Assembly: GCA_012959665.1 (NCBI GenBank)
Contig: DUCT01000249.1
Coordinates: forward strand, 1 to 36,745
Source: Myxococcales bacterium
Lineage (GTDB): Bacteria; Myxococcota_A; UBA9160; UBA4427
Direction of reading: 5' to 3'
DNA: 36,745 nt
The notes beneath the pieces are model-generated. The model searched no databases and had not been told where the DNA came from. It was given only the letters and a program-made list of their open reading frames with translations. Shown in pieces: positions 8,224-16,028 of the stretch (position 1 is the stretch's first letter; every line of letters starts with the position of its first letter). A program made the translations under genes and the position numbers.

Positions 8224-9126
8224 TCAGCGGACTCGCTCCTGAATCTGCCTTCGCCAGTAGGCCAGCAACTCCGAGAGGAGCCCTTCCAAGGAATGCGAGG
8301 CCTGCCAGCCTGTGGCTCTCTTCAGGCGTTCGGAATCGCCCACTCGAGCATCGGCGGGTCGCCAGCGTTTTTCGTCGCGCTCGATCTCGGGGGTAACTCC
8401 CGCGAGTCGAGCCAGGCTTTCTAGAAGGTTCCCGATGCGGGTGCCCACACCGCTGGCGATATTGTAGGTATCGGCCGGGACGGCCCGGTCCAGTAGCCGG
8501 ATGTAAGCGTCCACGACGTCGTCGACGTGGAGGAAGTCGCGAACACTGTCGAGATTACCGACGCGCATGGTCGGGGGATTGCCGGCCTCGATGAGCGCGA
8601 TCTGGCGGGCGAAGTCCGGCGCGACGAAGATCGGGGCTTGGCCGGGACCCGTGTGATTGAAGGCCCGAATCGTCACGACGTCCAAGCCGCGCCCTGCGGC
8701 TTCGAGGCCCAGACGTTCGGCGGCTGCCTTGGTCTCCGCATAGACACCTTGGGGCTCAAGGCGCGCGGCTTCGGTGAGCGCTGGCGCTCCGGGTTCCACC
8801 GGGGCGTATTGCTCGCTGGAGCCCACGAGCAGCAGGCGCGCTTCGGGGGCGTCGCGCTCGAGCGCTTCAATGACATTTTGCGTGCCCTGGACGTTGACGC
8901 GATGGGCCAGATTCGGGTCCCGGGAGGCCGCGGGAACGAAGGCCACTGCCGCCAGGTGGACCACCGCGTCCGGAGTGGCTTTCTCGACTACACCCCGAAC
9001 CATCGAGGCATCGCTGACATCGACGGAATCGACGTCGAATCCCGTTACCCGATGGCCGGCGGCCTCCAGGCGCGGAATGAGCCGGGTTCCCACAAACCCG
9101 CGCGAGCCGCTGACAAGGATTCTCAT
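8224..9126 (-). CDS. NAD(P)-dependent sugar epimerase/reductase, GDP-4-keto-6-deoxymannose reductase-like
   Basis: This is a short-chain dehydrogenase/epimerase of about 300 residues. The nucleotide-binding Rossmann motif is SGSRGFVG at the N-terminus. The catalytic residues are in SSEQY and YAETK. Residues RAFNHTGPGQAP, FVAPDFARQIALIE and VGNLDSVRDFLHVDDVV closely follow the Rmd type, which reduces GDP-4-keto-6-deoxy-mannose to GDP-rhamnose during surface polysaccharide synthesis. I chose ATG 9126 because the Rossmann strand begins there. A GTG at 9144 would add six residues, and neither start has a strong ribosome binding site. No GDP-mannose 4,6-dehydratase gene lies next to it, so the substrate is inferred from similarity only. 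The next gene starts divergently 86 bases away. Confidence 0.82.
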   Translation of the reverse strand: MRILVSGSRGFVGTRLIPRLEAAGHRVTGFDVDSVDVSDASMVRGVVEKATPDAVVHLAAVAFVPAASRDPNLAHRVNVQGTQNVIEALERDAPEARLLLVGSSEQYAPVEPGAPALTEAARLEPQGVYAETKAAAERLGLEAAGRGLDVVTIRAFNHTGPGQAPIFVAPDFARQIALIEAGNPPTMRVGNLDSVRDFLHVDDVVDAYIRLLDRAVPADTYNIASGVGTRIGNLLESLARLAGVTPEIERDEKRWRPADARVGDSERLKRATGWQASHSLEGLLSELLAYWRRQIQERVR

Positions 9127-9212
9127 TGGGGCGCAGCGTTCCACAGGAAACCATTGGGCGCAAACGCCGACCCGGAGGCAGGCTGCTACCTTTGGCCCTC
9201 AACGGGGGGCTT

Positions 9213-10217
9213 ATGATTATCGGTGTGAGTGGACGCAATGGGGCAGGGAAGGGCGCTGTCGTCGAGTTCCTGGCCGAGCGCAGCTTCTATGTATTTTCTC
9301 TGTCCGACGTGGTTCGCGACGAGTTGAAACGCCAAGGGGTCGATGAGACCCGGGAGCGAATGATCGAGGCCGGTCGTGGGCTGAGAGAGCGCCGAGGGCC
9401 CGGAGCCCTTGCCGAAGGACTGATCTCGCAGCTGTTGCCCGATCGGAATTACGTCATCGATTCGATTCGGCATCCCGCCGAGGTCGAGGCCTTGCGCCGG
9501 TTCTCGCCGGAGTTTCGGCTCGTCTGGGTGGACGCCAGCGAAACACGTCGGTTTGAGCGGATCCGTCAACGCGGCCGCCCGGGTGACCCCACGGACATCG
9601 AGGCATTGCGGGCCTTGGAGGCGCGCGAACTGAGCAACGCTGACGTGGCGGGTCAGCAACTCCTGGCGGTGGAAGAGATGGCCGATTTCGTCGTGCCCAA
9701 CGAAGCGGGCTTCGAAGAATTGCATCGGGCAGTTCGGGAGGTCTTTCGTGAGAGCCTTTTTTTTGAGCGGCCGACCTGGGACCAATATTTCATGAGCATC
9801 GCCCAGGTCGTGGCCTCCCGAAGCAATTGTGTGAAGCGCAAGGTTGCGGCGGTGGTGACGCGAGATCGCCGGATCGTTTCTACGGGTTACAACGGTACGC
9901 CTCGCGGGACTCGGAACTGCAACGAGGGGGGTTGTCCTCGTTGCAACGATCTCGCGCCGGGGGGGACCGGGTTGCTCGATTGTCTTTGCTCCCACGGCGA
10001 GGAAAACGCAATCACCCAGGCCTCCTACCACGGGGCAAGCCTTCGGGACGCCACGCTCTACACCACATTTTCCCCGTGCCTGCAGTGCACCAAGATGATC
10101 ATCAACTCCGGACTCAGCGAGGTGGTCTACAATTCGGGCTACCCCCTCGGGGATAGATCACTTGAGTTGCTCCAGGAGGCGGGTGTAAAACTCCGAAAAG
10201 TGGGCCCAACGGCCTGA
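9213..10217 (+). CDS. P-loop kinase-like / dCMP (dCTP) deaminase fusion
   Basis: The 334-residue product has two domains. Residues 1-180 resemble a nucleotide or dephospho-CoA kinase: P-loop GRNGAGKG (7-14), VIDSIRHPAEVEAL and a lid-like region VDASETRRFERIRQRG. Residues 188-334 are a zinc-dependent deoxycytidylate deaminase. The markers are STGYNGTPRG, a cysteine-rich insert NCNEGGCPRCND, the zinc/catalytic HGEEN (His261, Glu263) and SPCLQC (Cys289, Cys292). The expected reaction is dCMP to dUMP, feeding dTMP synthesis. The common HAE is HGE here. The same arrangement of kinase-like and deaminase domains is known in fungal Dcd1 and in anti-phage dCTP deaminases. I chose ATG 9213, just before the P-loop strand, because upstream codons overlap the divergent reductase gene and look non-coding. 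Confidence 0.85.
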   Translation: MIIGVSGRNGAGKGAVVEFLAERSFYVFSLSDVVRDELKRQGVDETRERMIEAGRGLRERRGPGALAEGLISQLLPDRNYVIDSIRHPAEVEALRRFSPEFRLVWVDASETRRFERIRQRGRPGDPTDIEALRALEARELSNADVAGQQLLAVEEMADFVVPNEAGFEELHRAVREVFRESLFFERPTWDQYFMSIAQVVASRSNCVKRKVAAVVTRDRRIVSTGYNGTPRGTRNCNEGGCPRCNDLAPGGTGLLDCLCSHGEENAITQASYHGASLRDATLYTTFSPCLQCTKMIINSGLSEVVYNSGYPLGDRSLELLQEAGVKLRKVGPTA

Positions 10218-10337
10218 ATCCTGCCCCGGGCTCCGACTCATCCCACGCGCAGGAGCGATTCCCCTAAATCCTCGGACCCAAGAGGACGAAATGAGGGGAC
10301 GCGCAGGAATTTGTTCCGGCGCTCTTCGGAGGCGAGT

Positions 10338-12008
10338 GTGCGACCCAGGCCGGTACAACTCCTTGATCAGCGTGCGTTTCCTATCCTCTACGTCGATGAC
10401 GAGCCCGACAATCTTCGGGTGTTCGAGCTGACATTTCGGAGGGACTTTTCCGTTCTTACCGCGACCTCCGCCGATGAGGGGATGGAGATCCTGAACGCCA
10501 ATCCCGTCGCTGTGGTGCTCTCCGATCAACGTATGCCGGGTGTCACTGGGGTCGAATTTCTGTCCCGGGTTAGGGATCTGGACCCGGACACTCTGCGGAT
10601 CCTTGTGACGGCCTATGGCGACGCCGAAATTCTCGGAGATGCGATCAACGACGGCAGCATTTATCGCTACATCCCCAAGCCTTGGGAGCCCGAGGACATG
10701 CGGATCACCCTGCGTCGGGCGATCGAGGTCTATGCCCTCGAGCGCGAGCGCACCGCGCTTTTGCAGGAACTGAGCACGATCAATCGTCTCTCTCGCAATC
10801 TTCATCAGGAGACGGAGATGGGCCGCTTGGTGGATCTGCTGCTGAATTCGATACACAAGGATCTGGGTTTCGACGGTGGCGCGTTGTTCTTCTTCGACGA
10901 AACGGGCGACCACCTGGCTTGGAAGGGACTATTCCCGGCCGAATCCGAGGTTTCATCGCGCCTCAGGGAAATCGATTTCTGCCGACCTCAAGCCAGCAAT
11001 TTTATGGATCAGATTCTGCTCGGGCGCACCCAACATCTGTCGATCGCCGATGCCACGGACTACGAGGGACCGGTGCGGTCGTGGTTGACCGAGGTGTCCG
11101 CGGACGAGATTCTGATTGTGCCTCTGACGGGCAAGAAGGGTGTGATCGGTGCATTGGCGGTGGACAATCGTTCGGGCAGTCGCCGGTTTGTGCCTGAGGA
11201 CTCGGGCCTTTTGGACGGCCTGGCAACCCAGGCCGTGATTGCCCTGGAAAACGCTCGTCTGGTCCAGGCACTGAGGGAATCACGCGCCCAAGTCCAACGA
11301 GCGGATCGGCTGGGTACCTTGGGCACACTGGCTGCCGGACTGGCGCACGAGATCAACAATCCCCTGGTTTCGGTGAATACTTTTTTGAACCTGGTCCCCG
11401 AGATGCGAAACCAGTCCGATGAATCATTTTGGGTTGAGTACCACCGGTTGGCTCTCGGCGAACTCGATCGTATCCGGGGCTTGGTGGGCACCATGTCCAG
11501 ACTGGGTGGGTCCGAAGGAGGCAGTGAGCCGTCACTCTGCCAGCCCGTGAATCTGGCCGAGGTGGTCCGTGAGGGGGCTCGCTTGATGGATCGACAGGTG
11601 GCCGGCGCCGGGGTGGACCTCGTGCTCAAAGTCGACGAAGAAGCCTCCGTGGTTCTGGGCGTACGAGATCAACTGCATCAGGTATTTCTCAACCTCGTAC
11701 TCAACGCCGTGGACGCGACGGAGCCAGGCGGGAGCGTCGAGGTGGAAGTGTCAAGGGATCCCTCAAATCCGGGCGAATGGGTGCTGATTCACTTTCGGGA
11801 CCATGGCCAGGGCATATCGCCCGAGCATCTGGAGCGGATATTTGACCCCTTCTTTACGACCAAGGGACCGAACAAGGGCAGCGGGCTCGGGTTGATGATT
11901 GTCCACCAGATCGTGTCCGAGCATGGCGGAAGCATCCAACTGAGCAGTGAATTGAGTGGCGGGACGATTTTTCAGGTTCGATTGCCGTTGGCCGGCGAAG
12001 CGGAATAG
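10338..12008 (+). CDS. soluble REC-GAF-histidine kinase
   Basis: This 556-residue signalling protein has no membrane segment. An N-terminal receiver (about 14-135) has the DDE acidic cluster, phosphoacceptor Asp63 in LSDQRMPG and Lys113 in YIPKPWEP, the pattern of RpfG/HD-GYP-type receivers. A GAF-like sensor domain (about 160-305) follows, ending in GALAVDNRSG and ATQAVIALENARL. The kinase has phosphoacceptor His337 in AAGLAHEINNP, an N-box VFLNLVLNAVDAT, and G-boxes DHGQGI and GSGLGLMIVHQI. GTG 10338 is chosen because GGAGG lies 5 bases upstream. The frame is also open from TTG 10311. The receiver in front suggests it is itself controlled by another kinase. No output regulator adjoins it on this strand. 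Confidence 0.9.
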   Translation: MRPRPVQLLDQRAFPILYVDDEPDNLRVFELTFRRDFSVLTATSADEGMEILNANPVAVVLSDQRMPGVTGVEFLSRVRDLDPDTLRILVTAYGDAEILGDAINDGSIYRYIPKPWEPEDMRITLRRAIEVYALERERTALLQELSTINRLSRNLHQETEMGRLVDLLLNSIHKDLGFDGGALFFFDETGDHLAWKGLFPAESEVSSRLREIDFCRPQASNFMDQILLGRTQHLSIADATDYEGPVRSWLTEVSADEILIVPLTGKKGVIGALAVDNRSGSRRFVPEDSGLLDGLATQAVIALENARLVQALRESRAQVQRADRLGTLGTLAAGLAHEINNPLVSVNTFLNLVPEMRNQSDESFWVEYHRLALGELDRIRGLVGTMSRLGGSEGGSEPSLCQPVNLAEVVREGARLMDRQVAGAGVDLVLKVDEEASVVLGVRDQLHQVFLNLVLNAVDATEPGGSVEVEVSRDPSNPGEWVLIHFRDHGQGISPEHLERIFDPFFTTKGPNKGSGLGLMIVHQIVSEHGGSIQLSSELSGGTIFQVRLPLAGEAE

Positions 12009-12171
12009 CCTGGGGGACTGCTTGACGCGTCGAGATTGATTCAAGACACTGGGACGGCCTATGCCCTCGGAAGCGGGGAGCCGCCGGCAGCCTGGGAGTC
12101 TCTACCGGGAAGCGTCGTTGGCGATCCGCGGGGGGGGCGCTGCACCCATCGGAGTCTTGAATTTGTCCCAT

Positions 12172-12855
12172 ATGCTGCTGCGATCCCAAAGAGTCAGTCC
12201 CCGAACTCCCGGCCGGGAAAAAGCGCGCCGGGAGGCGACCCGGACGAATAGGATCGCTTGGGTCTGTCGCGTCCTCGTGCCCGTGTGGCTCGCGGTCTTG
12301 GGCATTCCCCAAGTGGCTTGGAGCCAGCAGAAACCGAGCATCCTCCTCCTCCCCATGGTCGTTCACAGTTCCGAGAGCCCCGGCTATCTCCGCCGAGGCC
12401 TGTCGGACATGTTGATGGCGCGTTTTCAGCAGGCCGACCAATTCGTGTTGATTCAAGTCGAAGATCCCGCGATGGCGACCACCCAGCTCGATCAGGCAGT
12501 TGAAGCGGGCCGGGCCGCGGATGCCGATTTTGTTCTCTTCGGATCGTTTACCCGGTTCGGAGAGGGAGCGAGCCTGGACATGCACGTGGCCTCTACTTCG
12601 CCGAAGAGCGAAGGGGAGAACCTCCGGGAAATTTTCGTCCACTCGGGGCAGATCGGCGAGGTCATCCCCGATCTCGAAGGTCTGGTGGGCAAGGTGACTC
12701 GGTTCGCCATCGAGGATTTTTCTCCGGCTGCACCCGGCGAGGATGCGGCTCCCCCTCCAGTACCCGGCTCGCGGGCGGATCTACTCTTGCGCGTTCAGAG
12801 TCTGGAACAGGCGCTGGAACAGTTGAAGAAGACGGACGGAGGCGAAGTTCGTTGA
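12172..12855 (+). CDS. exported protein of unknown function (FlgO/CsgG-like N-terminal fold)
   Basis: The protein has a hydrophobic export signal (VCRVLVPVWLAVLGIPQVAWS, ending before QQKP) after a basic leader. The mature part starts SILLLPMVVHSSESPGYLRRGL, then DMLMARFQQADQFVLIQ, ADADFVLFGSFTRFGEG and VASTSPKSEGE. This resembles periplasmic proteins such as FlgO/CsgG/TolB-N that build a small alpha/beta domain, but I cannot assign a family firmly. The C-terminal 20 residues (RADLLLRVQSLEQALEQL) look like a short coiled coil. The start is uncertain: ATG 12172 is used, a TTG at 12163 has GGAG 8 bases upstream, and the frame is open back to 12061. The gene follows the REC-GAF-kinase by about 160 bases. 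Confidence 0.6.
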   Translation: MLLRSQRVSPRTPGREKARREATRTNRIAWVCRVLVPVWLAVLGIPQVAWSQQKPSILLLPMVVHSSESPGYLRRGLSDMLMARFQQADQFVLIQVEDPAMATTQLDQAVEAGRAADADFVLFGSFTRFGEGASLDMHVASTSPKSEGENLREIFVHSGQIGEVIPDLEGLVGKVTRFAIEDFSPAAPGEDAAPPPVPGSRADLLLRVQSLEQALEQLKKTDGGEVR

Positions 12856-12943: not shown

Positions 12944-13020
12944 GGCGGTGTAGCTCAGTCGGTTAGAGCGGCGGCTTCATAAGCCGTAGGTCGGTGGTTC
13001 AAGTCCACTCACCGCTACCA
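12944..13020 (+). tRNA. tRNA-Met (anticodon CAT), CCA encoded
   Basis: A complete cloverleaf can be drawn. The 7-bp acceptor stem is GGCGGTG with CACCGCT, where the first pair is G-U, followed by discriminator A and encoded CCA. The D-arm is GCTCAGTCGGTTAGAGC. The anticodon stem GCGGC/GCCGT encloses loop TTCATAA with anticodon CAT. The T-loop is GTTCAAGTC. The body resembles elongator tRNA-Met. A tRNA-Ile(CAT) that is modified to lysidine has the same anticodon and cannot be fully excluded. The presence of tilS in this genome does not decide this, because every bacterium with TilS also has Met tRNAs. There is no obvious T-run terminator after it. Confidence 0.93.
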
Positions 13021-13163: not shown

Positions 13164-14087
13164 ATGGCTAGCCGGGGGGAGAGAGGCATCTTGAGACAAG
13201 CGGTTGGAATGGCCGCGAGCTTGGCCCTCGTCTTAGCGGCTTGCGGACCCGCTGAAGAATCTACTCCGCCTATGGGATTGGCGGATGACCTCGATAAATC
13301 GGGCCCGGTTCGTGAACTGGTCTTTGGCCTCTACACATCGGACGCGGCCACTGAGATGGTCAAGCAATTCGCTCCAATACTGGCAGTACTCGACAGCAAC
13401 CTGAGCGAGTTCCTAGGCGAGTCAGTGAAGACGAAGCTCAGAGTGGCTTCGACCTACGAAGGGGGAGTCGATGACCTCGTTTCGGGCCGAGTCGATTTTG
13501 CTCGCATGGGCCCAGCCTCCTATGTCGTGGCCAAGGAGTTGAACGAGTCCATTCGGATCATTGCGATGGAAAGTAAGAAAGGGTCGAAGATTTTTCAGGG
13601 CGTAATTTGTGTCCACCAGGACAGCTCGATCCAGAACATTGGCGAACTCAAAGGAAAAAAATTCGCCTTCGGGGACTCCCGTTCCACAATTGGCCGCTTT
13701 CTTGCGCAGGAGCTGCTTGTTGGGAATGGAATCTATGCGAGCGATCTTGGCGGCTTCGATTTTCTGGGTCGGCACGATAAAGTTGGAATGGCGGTTGGCC
13801 GAAAAAAGTATGCAGCGGGTGCGTTAAAGGAGAGCACCTTCAAGAAACTTGTGGCTGCAGGCGAGCCGATTCGAGCGATCGTGGCATTTCCGAATGTCAC
13901 GAAACCGTGGATCGCGCGTTCGGGGATGTCCCCGGAACTGTTTGAGGCAATTCGACTAACTCTTCTTGGAATGACGGATGCAGATGCTCTCAAAGCCCTC
14001 AAGAAAGATGGGTTCCTGCCGGGTTTCGATGAGGACTATGACGCCATTCGTCAGGCCATTGAGTCGAGTCGGTCGTTTGACTCCTAG
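13164..14087 (+). CDS. PhnD-like phosphate/phosphonate substrate-binding lipoprotein
   Basis: The 307-residue product has a lipoprotein signal with lipobox LAAC (Cys27), so it would be anchored on the periplasmic face. The mature protein follows the PhnD/phosphite-phosphonate binding-protein pattern: LVFGLYTSDAATEMVKQFAP, VDDLVSGRVDFARMGPASYV, SIQNIGELKGKKFAFGDSRS and VGRKKYAAGALKESTFKKL. ATG 13164 is chosen because GGAG sits 9 bases upstream and the signal peptide follows directly; the frame is open back to 13029. No permease or ATPase gene is adjacent. Instead a membrane hybrid kinase starts 51 bases downstream, so it more likely serves as a sensory binding protein than as part of an importer. 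The ligand cannot be read from the sequence. Confidence 0.85.
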   Translation: MASRGERGILRQAVGMAASLALVLAACGPAEESTPPMGLADDLDKSGPVRELVFGLYTSDAATEMVKQFAPILAVLDSNLSEFLGESVKTKLRVASTYEGGVDDLVSGRVDFARMGPASYVVAKELNESIRIIAMESKKGSKIFQGVICVHQDSSIQNIGELKGKKFAFGDSRSTIGRFLAQELLVGNGIYASDLGGFDFLGRHDKVGMAVGRKKYAAGALKESTFKKLVAAGEPIRAIVAFPNVTKPWIARSGMSPELFEAIRLTLLGMTDADALKALKKDGFLPGFDEDYDAIRQAIESSRSFDS

Positions 14088-14104
14088 CCGAAGAATTCTT
14101 CGGC
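14087..14104. promoter_or_regulatory. perfect 18-bp palindrome between PhnD-like gene and hybrid kinase
   Basis: GCCGAAGAATTCTTCGGC is a perfect 18-bp palindrome that begins on the last base of the PhnD-like stop codon. It ends 35 bases before the kinase start. It has no loop and no T-run, so it could be a dimer-binding operator or an mRNA stem that sets the ratio of the two products. Which one cannot be told from the sequence. Confidence 0.45.
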
Positions 14105-14138
14105 CAATGTCTGTCGAGTTTGCTTTCAATCTTTTGGT

Positions 14139-16028
14139 GTGCTCCCGTCGAAAAAATCGCACCCTATTGGCGCTGTGACTGTGACTGTGAGTGCCCGATC
14201 CGAAGCTTGGTCCATTCGACGCCGTGTGTTGACCACCTTGGCCGTGGTTTCAGGGGTCCTGATTCTGGTGAGCGGTGAGCCGGTTCGACGGCTAGAAACC
14301 GCCGCCATGGTAAATATCATTCGGGAGCAGTACGCGAGTTCTCTTGAGTCGCTGGTTCCCGCGCTTCAAGATCACGTGATTACCCGGGATGCTGACATGG
14401 ATCTGCCCGTGCTTCAGCGGATTGCTTCAGATTTTCGTCGAACTCACCCGGCGGTGCTCAGTATGCGGATCCAGGATTCGGATGGGAACTCGCTGGTGGA
14501 AGAATCCGTGTCCGGCTCTTTTGAGCAGGACAGAACCTTTGAAGTTAGCCGGGAACTCATGGCGGGGGAATTTGCTGTGGGAAGTGTAGGACTTGTCATC
14601 GATCTCCGGCCCATTGAAGCCCAGGCTGGACGACATGCCCTGAAGTTGCAGGCGGTTTTTGCGGCGCTGATTCTTCTGGTCGCGTTCATTCTTGTTGGCT
14701 TGTTTTATCGGCTTGCGGTTCATCCATTACGCAAGATCGACGACAAACTTAAGAAACTGGTTTCGGGAGAGGATATTTCGAGTGAGGAGTTCAGGGGAGC
14801 GGAGGAATTTCTGCGCTTGAACGATTCGGTGGACGCTTTGGCCTCGGCGGTTCAACTGCAGGAACGGCAGCAGGAACTGGAGCAGCAGTTGCAGCAATCC
14901 CAGAAGCTGGAGGCAATTGGAAGGCTTGCGGGGGGCGTAGCTCATGATTTCAACAATCTACTGACGGTCATCCTGGGCTATGCCGAGACCCTTATGGAGG
15001 ATCCGGGCCTGGGCAAGAGCGGCCGAAATAGTGCGAGTCAGATTGTTTCCGCCGGTGAGCGCGCCGCGGCCCTAACCCGGCAATTGTTGGCCTTCAGCCG
15101 AAAGCAGGTCATGCGGTCGAGTTTGGTCGACCCGGTCGAAGTGCTGAAGAAAATGGAGCAGATGCTGGATCGACTGATCGGCGAACTGGTCGAAATCAAG
15201 GTCGATGTACGGGGGGAAGTGGGGTTGGTGAGTATCGACCCGACTCAGTTCGAGCAGGTCATTTTGAATCTTGCCGTGAATGCTCGGGATGCCATGAGGC
15301 AAGGCGGTGTTTTGAAATTCGCCCTCTACCCAGAGACCGTCGAGGTCGGTGTCTCTTCTGCAACGAGCGTCTCGCCGATCGTTCCACCGGGTAATTACAT
15401 TGTGCTGTCGGTGCAAGACAATGGTTCCGGCATGGATAGGGAGACCCAGGGGCGAATATTTGAACCGTTCTTTACCACGAAGAAGTCAGGGGAGGGCACT
15501 GGTCTAGGCCTGGCTATGGTCTATGGAATTATCAGTCAGAGCGGCGGATTCATCGACTTGGAGAGCGAAGTGGATGAGGGGACGACCTTCCTGGTCTATC
15601 TTCTTCAGGTCGATGGGGTTCTGGAGTCGCCGGAACTCAGTGTGGTTCATTCGCATGGAAAGCCCGGCGCGACGATTCTGCTTGTGGAGGATGAGGGTCT
15701 CGTGCGGACCCTAACCCAGGAAATTCTGGAGACTGAGGGATATCGGGTATTGGTCGCAGAGGATTCGGAGAAGGCTCTCCGAGTCTCTGAAGGCCATTCT
15801 GCGCGGATTGATCTGCTGCTGACGGACTTGGTTCTGCCGGGAATGTCGGGGAGCGCTCTCAGTAAGACGATTGAGGAGCACAGGCCTGATATCAAGACCC
15901 TGCTTGTCTCCGGTTACGACAACCAGATGCTAGGCACCGAGTACAGGGAAATGCCCTTTCTTCAGAAACCATTCGATCGAACCTCATTGCTGCGGAAGGT
16001 TTCGGATTTGCTTGACACGGGCGATTGA
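14139..16028 (+). CDS. membrane hybrid histidine kinase with C-terminal receiver
   Basis: The 629-residue protein has two membrane segments (about 29-46 and 171-190) flanking a periplasmic domain of about 120 residues. A HAMP-like linker (HPLRKIDDKLKKL) and a Gln-rich coiled coil (240-256) follow. The kinase core has His269 in GGVAHDFNNLL, N-box LNLAVNARDA, and G-boxes DNGSGM and GTGLGLAMVYGI. A receiver at about 510-629 has the VEDE cluster, phosphoacceptor Asp563 in LTDLVLPGMSG and Lys610 in LQKPF. This HDFNN class with a terminal receiver usually passes phosphate onward to a separate protein. GTG 14139 is used, but GTG codons near 14174 are alternatives. The kinase directly follows the PhnD-like lipoprotein, its probable ligand partner. 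It converges on the acyl-CoA ligase gene. Confidence 0.9.
   Translation: MLPSKKSHPIGAVTVTVSARSEAWSIRRRVLTTLAVVSGVLILVSGEPVRRLETAAMVNIIREQYASSLESLVPALQDHVITRDADMDLPVLQRIASDFRRTHPAVLSMRIQDSDGNSLVEESVSGSFEQDRTFEVSRELMAGEFAVGSVGLVIDLRPIEAQAGRHALKLQAVFAALILLVAFILVGLFYRLAVHPLRKIDDKLKKLVSGEDISSEEFRGAEEFLRLNDSVDALASAVQLQERQQELEQQLQQSQKLEAIGRLAGGVAHDFNNLLTVILGYAETLMEDPGLGKSGRNSASQIVSAGERAAALTRQLLAFSRKQVMRSSLVDPVEVLKKMEQMLDRLIGELVEIKVDVRGEVGLVSIDPTQFEQVILNLAVNARDAMRQGGVLKFALYPETVEVGVSSATSVSPIVPPGNYIVLSVQDNGSGMDRETQGRIFEPFFTTKKSGEGTGLGLAMVYGIISQSGGFIDLESEVDEGTTFLVYLLQVDGVLESPELSVVHSHGKPGATILLVEDEGLVRTLTQEILETEGYRVLVAEDSEKALRVSEGHSARIDLLLTDLVLPGMSGSALSKTIEEHRPDIKTLLVSGYDNQMLGTEYREMPFLQKPFDRTSLLRKVSDLLDTGD

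Follow-up and report, generated by a model that had tools for sequence, protein, structure and literature searches.

A PhnD-like lipoprotein gene-paired with a membrane hybrid kinase in Myxococcota: a probable two-part receptor whose sensor recurs with different outputs

The window, i.e. the whole stretch of 36,745 nucleotides that was analysed, belongs to a Myxococcota MAG (3.57 Mb, 80.5% complete) and includes two consecutive genes encoding a solute-binding protein (SBP) and a hybrid histidine kinase (Table 1). A preliminary description had recognised there a PhnD-like lipoprotein beside a hybrid kinase with two transmembrane segments and a small periplasmic domain, with no adjacent permease or ATPase. 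This picture was recovered in full, namely a PF12974 domain and a lipobox in the former, HisKA, HATPase_c and receiver domains together with two hydrophobic segments in the latter, and no ABC transporter gene among their neighbours in the window. Upstream of the pair lie a tRNA-Met gene (12944-13020), an ORF without Pfam match and a REC-GAF-histidine kinase gene, and downstream an acyl-CoA ligase gene on the opposite strand; neither an arsenic enzyme nor a separate response regulator is encoded beside it. The two upstream protein-coding genes (10311-12855) are syntenic in the genus where the contig extends that far and are not beside the pair in G023, a genome from another genus. Also conserved in the genus is a gene for a P-loop kinase and cytidine/dCMP deaminase (9126-10217), with a sub-threshold match to an anti-phage dCTP deaminase (131 bits vs. 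400).

Table 1. Coordinates in the window of the gene pair and of the features of its products.
Feature	Position	Strand	Basis
PhnD/PtxB-type solute-binding lipoprotein, 307 aa, proposed ligand sensor	13164..14087	+	PF12974, AF2 model, conservation
Lipobox L24-A25-A26-C27 (L-A-A-C), lipid anchor site	13233..13244	+	Read from sequence
Hybrid histidine kinase, 629 aa (likely true start 14175-14187)	14139..16028	+	HisKA, HATPase_c, Response_reg in Pfam; orthologue alignment
First transmembrane helix (approximate)	14220..14282	+	Hydropathy; model helix 5-61 of sensor construct
Periplasmic sensor domain of ~117 aa, Cache/PDC- or LapD-like, proposed lipoprotein docking surface	14283..14633	+	Model; homology across paired proteins
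Second transmembrane helix (approximate), then HAMP-like linker and signalling helix	14634..14708	+	Hydropathy; HAMP in relatives
HisKA dimerisation/phosphoacceptor domain, His269 in AHDFNN	14919..15107	+	PF00512, 39.2 bits
HATPase_c catalytic domain, CckA-like core	15237..15602	+	PF02518; NCBIfam CckA
C-terminal receiver domain, Asp563	15675..16001	+	PF00072, 66.2 bits

The SBP gene starts with an ATG at 13164 and its product has a single Pfam domain, PF12974 (Phosphonate-bd), matched over its full length (positions 1-242 of 242) with 155.9 bits against a cut-off of 27; no other PF12974 match occurs in the same genome. At finer resolution, the protein scores below the cut-off of the NCBIfam PhnD equivalog TIGR03431 (109.7 vs. 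261.1 bits) and narrowly under that of the NCBIfam phosphate/phosphite/phosphonate SBP subfamily (106.9 vs. 112). Its AF2 model (pLDDT 87) matches the structures of PtxB, ArrX, AioX and XAC2383, and by sequence PtxB is a better match than AioX or ArrX. The codon for Cys27 lies at 13242, and each of the six closest relatives has a Cys behind its signal segment, in four of them with an Asp at +2. While the lipobox is common to the Myxococcota members, the SBPs from an unclassified proteobacterium (L036), Sulfuritalea (L039) and the roseobacters apparently have plain signal peptides, so that lipid anchoring is, from these signal segments, probably a lineage feature. Directly past the stop codon lies a perfect 18-base palindrome (GCCGAAGAATTCTTCGGC, 14087-14104), which was dismissed as a terminator or regulator site for having no counterpart in the gaps of relatives; a promoter scan found none.

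Counted from the first GTG of the kinase, the gap between the two genes is 51 nt, the figure of the preliminary description, but orthologue alignment suggests a start nearer 14175-14187, in which case the gap may be 87-99 nt; in relatives, the SBP and sensor genes are separated by 6-53 nt or their ORFs overlap. The hydrophobic segments of the kinase fall near residues 26-49 and 163-198 by hydropathy, and HAMP exceeds the Pfam cut-off in some of its relatives. Its best NCBIfam match is CckA, with 352 bits over the catalytic core only and a full-length equivalog cut-off of 1000 bits; identity with this cell-cycle kinase was rejected on that score and on the failure to find a ChpT-type domain in its own genome (80.5% complete). 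The terminal receiver noted in the preliminary description is present. Its prediction of a separate output protein encoded elsewhere is borne out only in part, the sole Hpt match of that genome, at the same 80.5% completeness, lying within an 852-aa ORF of CheA-like length; in two relatives, a short ORF with an Hpt domain was found. As for the sensor domain, no convincing match was obtained in Pfam or among PDB sequences, and its model, of modest confidence (pLDDT 76.5), shows a long initial helix and, after it, a small alpha/beta domain similar to the sensor domains of the LapD orthologue CdgS9 (4u64), KinD and WalK. The signalling protein of the XAC2383-XAC2382 pair reportedly has a LapD-like periplasmic domain.

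Each of the five genus genomes contains both genes, and their surroundings are also shared up to the contig ends; in G023, the pair is kept at a different chromosomal place with no other neighbour in common. A genome-wide scan retrieved orthologous SBPs in L036, in Sulfuritalea and in Dechloromonas (L038), and the best matches on plasmids all belong to Rhodobacterales; SBP identity amounts to 50-55% for L036, 39-43% for L039 and 46-54% for the roseobacter plasmids. In L036, L039, the roseobacter plasmids and the genomes G257 and G177, the gene directly downstream of the SBP gene encodes a membrane protein whose periplasmic part matches that of the window kinase (48-276 bits with a sensor profile). 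In the kinases of L036 and L039, this part aligns with the window kinase (E-values of 7e-14 and 1e-8) and the cytoplasmic part is of another type. On the Rhodobacterales plasmids, the next gene encodes a hybrid kinase in each of the five loci opened and the profile confirmed the shared sensor in every one; a direct sensor query against plasmids returned no match, these sensors having been reached via the SBP and then the sensor profile. Searched against 379 Myxococcota genomes, the profile gave 13 near-full-length matches, 12 of them with a PhnD-like gene directly upstream. The weak near-full-length match in G133 has no detectable SBP and, conversely, no sensor gene was detected beside the SBP gene of Dechloromonas.

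The SBP is conserved in all relatives of the pair and the periplasmic domain is homologous in all paired proteins. The two genes are found together in otherwise unrelated surroundings, which shows that their association is not fortuitous. In the characterised SBP-kinase couples, 10 out of 11 are gene neighbours, and neighbourhood does not always reflect a functional link, as AgtB/AgtS and PA4985/AruS showed no interaction (PMC11113362). With one representative per lineage, the divergences of SBP and sensor are weakly correlated (r = 0.38, with 60 of 5000 permutations as high), and this putative co-divergence is not counted as strong support. In all five of the opened Rhodobacterales plasmid loci (L075, L076, L077, L126, L128), the pair is divergent from a gene for a protein of 1280-1350 aa annotated as PEP/pyruvate-binding, which may be a target of the sensor, and zinc ABC transporter genes lie convergent to the pair; the L075 copy of the large protein contains two rhodanese domains, a 60KD_IMP-like segment, PPDK_N and PEP-utilizer domains.

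Behind the shared sensor, the outputs differ, namely CckA-like hybrid kinase, BarA-like hybrid kinase, kinase with PAS and Hpt, plain kinase, class III cyclase and GGDEF. Myxococcota have CckA-like hybrid kinases, a plain kinase, class III cyclases and GGDEF, and Pseudomonadota BarA-like kinases with receivers, in one case with Hpt. In the SBP tree, the window protein falls in a clade of 16 rows (support 98/92), which includes the unlinked Dechloromonas protein as well as SBPs partnered by a cyclase, a kinase or a hybrid kinase. Three cyclase pairs and the GGDEF pair have SBPs that fall outside this clade, so that members of one sensor family are combined with different types of SBP. Besides, many PhnD-like genes of Myxococcota adjoin GGDEF genes (L086, L087, L090, L091, L093, L100, L101, L104, L106), an arrangement that resembles XAC2383-XAC2382, with a weak sCache_3_2 match in three of the GGDEF proteins scanned. 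In three other Myxococcota proteins (L098, L103 and L107, in G114, G324 and G377 respectively), a Ser/Thr protein kinase domain at the N-terminus and a Phosphonate-bd domain at the C-terminus are joined in a single polypeptide, which suggests receptor kinases whose outer domain is PhnD-like.

That the lipoprotein would be the binding component of an ordinary ABC importer encoded elsewhere, its adjacency to the kinase being incidental or the kinase merely regulating uptake, has the general habit of the family in its favour: SBPs with PF12974 normally work with ABC importers, the best structural matches of the model are PtxB proteins of transporters, and genuine PhnC-linked SBPs are found elsewhere in this bacterial family (L023, L027). 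Against this stand the genomes and the tree. PhnE, as scored in the five genus genomes, is nowhere near the family cut-off (22-37 bits vs. 216.7), and neither phnC nor phnE adjoins the pair in the genus, G023, L036, L039, the roseobacter plasmids, G257 or G177. None of the 16 rows of the window clade is an ABC-linked protein, the PtxB proteins linked to PhnC/PhnE forming a separate clade (support 100/99), and the plasmid SBP matches of at most 34% identity that were opened and annotated lie in phnC-phnD-phnE operons, most of them also with phosphonate (phosphite) dehydrogenase or C-P lyase genes. Finally, the pair is retained among unrelated neighbours, and its outputs differ behind a common sensor. 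The importer explanation is consequently improbable, and the binding-protein-dependent receptor put forward in the preliminary description is supported instead, the two checks proposed there (repeated co-occurrence of the genes and absence of phnC/phnE beside them) having both turned out in its favour: retention of SBP and sensor through changes of both neighbourhood and output is the pattern that a two-part receptor of this type predicts.

The binding pocket was mapped on PtxB and AioX and compared among the 16 clade members. The oxyanion core, i.e. Y98, S174, T175 and H204, is invariant in all of them, as are three basic residues, R114, R178 and R203, which differ in the PtxB controls. The third serine position is Ile176 and the second tyrosine position (Tyr100-type) Phe144; the position of the phosphite-capping Tyr208 is Lys247 (Lys in 14 of the 16) and that of Asp22 is Ser59 or Ala. 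A PtxB-like phosphite-binding identity was discarded on these four positions, although S174, T175 and H204 are kept, and phosphite or arsenic sensing as a direct transfer of function was ruled out on the pocket residues. The same departures from characterised sites (Ile176 for the third Ser, Phe144 for Tyr, Lys247 for the cap Tyr) could be read as the mark of a lipoprotein without a ligand in its cleft, which would still share the module with the kinase, for instance as a constitutive periplasmic stabiliser or an envelope-stress probe; the invariance of the core and of the three arginines suggests selection on the binding cleft, and such a ligand-free role is about as implausible as that of an importer component. 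Least credible of all is membership of the AioX/ArxX/ArrX group of arsenic-oxyanion sensors, which has the same SBP and kinase architecture and the structure matches to AioX and ArrX on its side and, against it, a Gly116 in 16 of 16 members where AioX has Cys106 (located by residue count from the conserved Tyr), no oxidoreductase gene seen beside the pair in annotated loci, no response regulator gene after the pair in the window and the better sequence match to PtxB. From its residues (core kept, arginines invariant), the pocket is predicted to accommodate an oxyanion with extra negative charge rather than phosphite or arsenite.

With a probability of about 0.86, the two genes are considered to encode a two-part transmembrane receptor in which the lipoprotein acts as ligand sensor for the kinase; by its pairing, the absence of transporter genes and its conservation across lineages, the couple would rank among binding-protein-dependent receptor kinases. 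Held at a membrane by its lipid, the lipoprotein would close around a small oxyanion-type ligand and, loaded (or empty), press against the short Cache-like domain that the kinase dimer exposes to the periplasm. Autophosphorylation of His269 would change as a result, as would the transfer of the phosphoryl group to the receiver of the kinase itself and then on to a putative downstream partner. A bolder reading, offered tentatively and judged rather doubtful, is that the clade represents an unrecognised receptor front end, in which a basic-pocket SBP (R114, R178, R203 and usually K247) and a Cache-like sensor would be interchangeable before hybrid kinases, class III cyclases and possibly diguanylate cyclases, and would sense a multiply charged anion without known bacterial receptor, e.g. 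an acidic organophosphate.

PhnD-like genes are usually read as genes of phosphorus uptake. Here, the comparative evidence marks a clade as sensor and its signature separates it from the transporters, which opens such genes to re-annotation. One front end on different cytoplasmic outputs is also a natural domain-swap series for the study of binding-protein signalling through a short Cache-like domain, and the clade makes a clear target for ligand hunting in Myxococcota and on marine roseobacter plasmids.

The use of PhnD-type proteins as sensors is a principle already known from AioX-AioS, XAC2383-XAC2382 and the fused TtrS; the window pair is of the same kind and, on the features tested, outside those families. 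With AioX-AioS-AioR, ArxXSR and ArrXSR (PMC5908839), it has in common a gene for a PhnD-fold binding protein beside that of a membrane kinase, for sensing and not transport, but it has no linked cognate response regulator or arsenic enzyme gene, its kinase bears its own receiver and Gly116 replaces the arsenite Cys. In XAC2383-XAC2382, as far as the account cited in PMC10380989 goes, a separate PhnD-fold protein is likewise gene-paired with a membrane signalling protein, and 5ub3 is among the structure matches of the window SBP; on the same account, the output there is GGDEF, as opposed to a CckA-like hybrid kinase here. The SBPs of the two systems are distant (45 bits to 5ub3 vs. 135 for the best PtxB). 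The tetrathionate and thiosulfate kinases TtrS and ThsS (PMC5408782) are also controlled by a PhnD-like domain, which is fused to the kinase whereas the window pair has a separate lipoprotein. With PtxB and PhnD of PhnCDE ABC importers (PMC5700983), the window SBP shares the fold and, in part, the oxyanion pocket (Y, S, T, H); it differs by having no permease or ATPase, by Lys247 and Ser59 in place of the phosphite cap Tyr208 and Asp22, and by its separate clade. A literature search for PhnD-type SBPs with cyclases or for the roseobacter pairs returned nothing relevant, an absence that is no proof of novelty. Set against these systems, what looks to be new is an SBP clade, apparently undescribed, that combines a basic pocket signature with exchangeable outputs.
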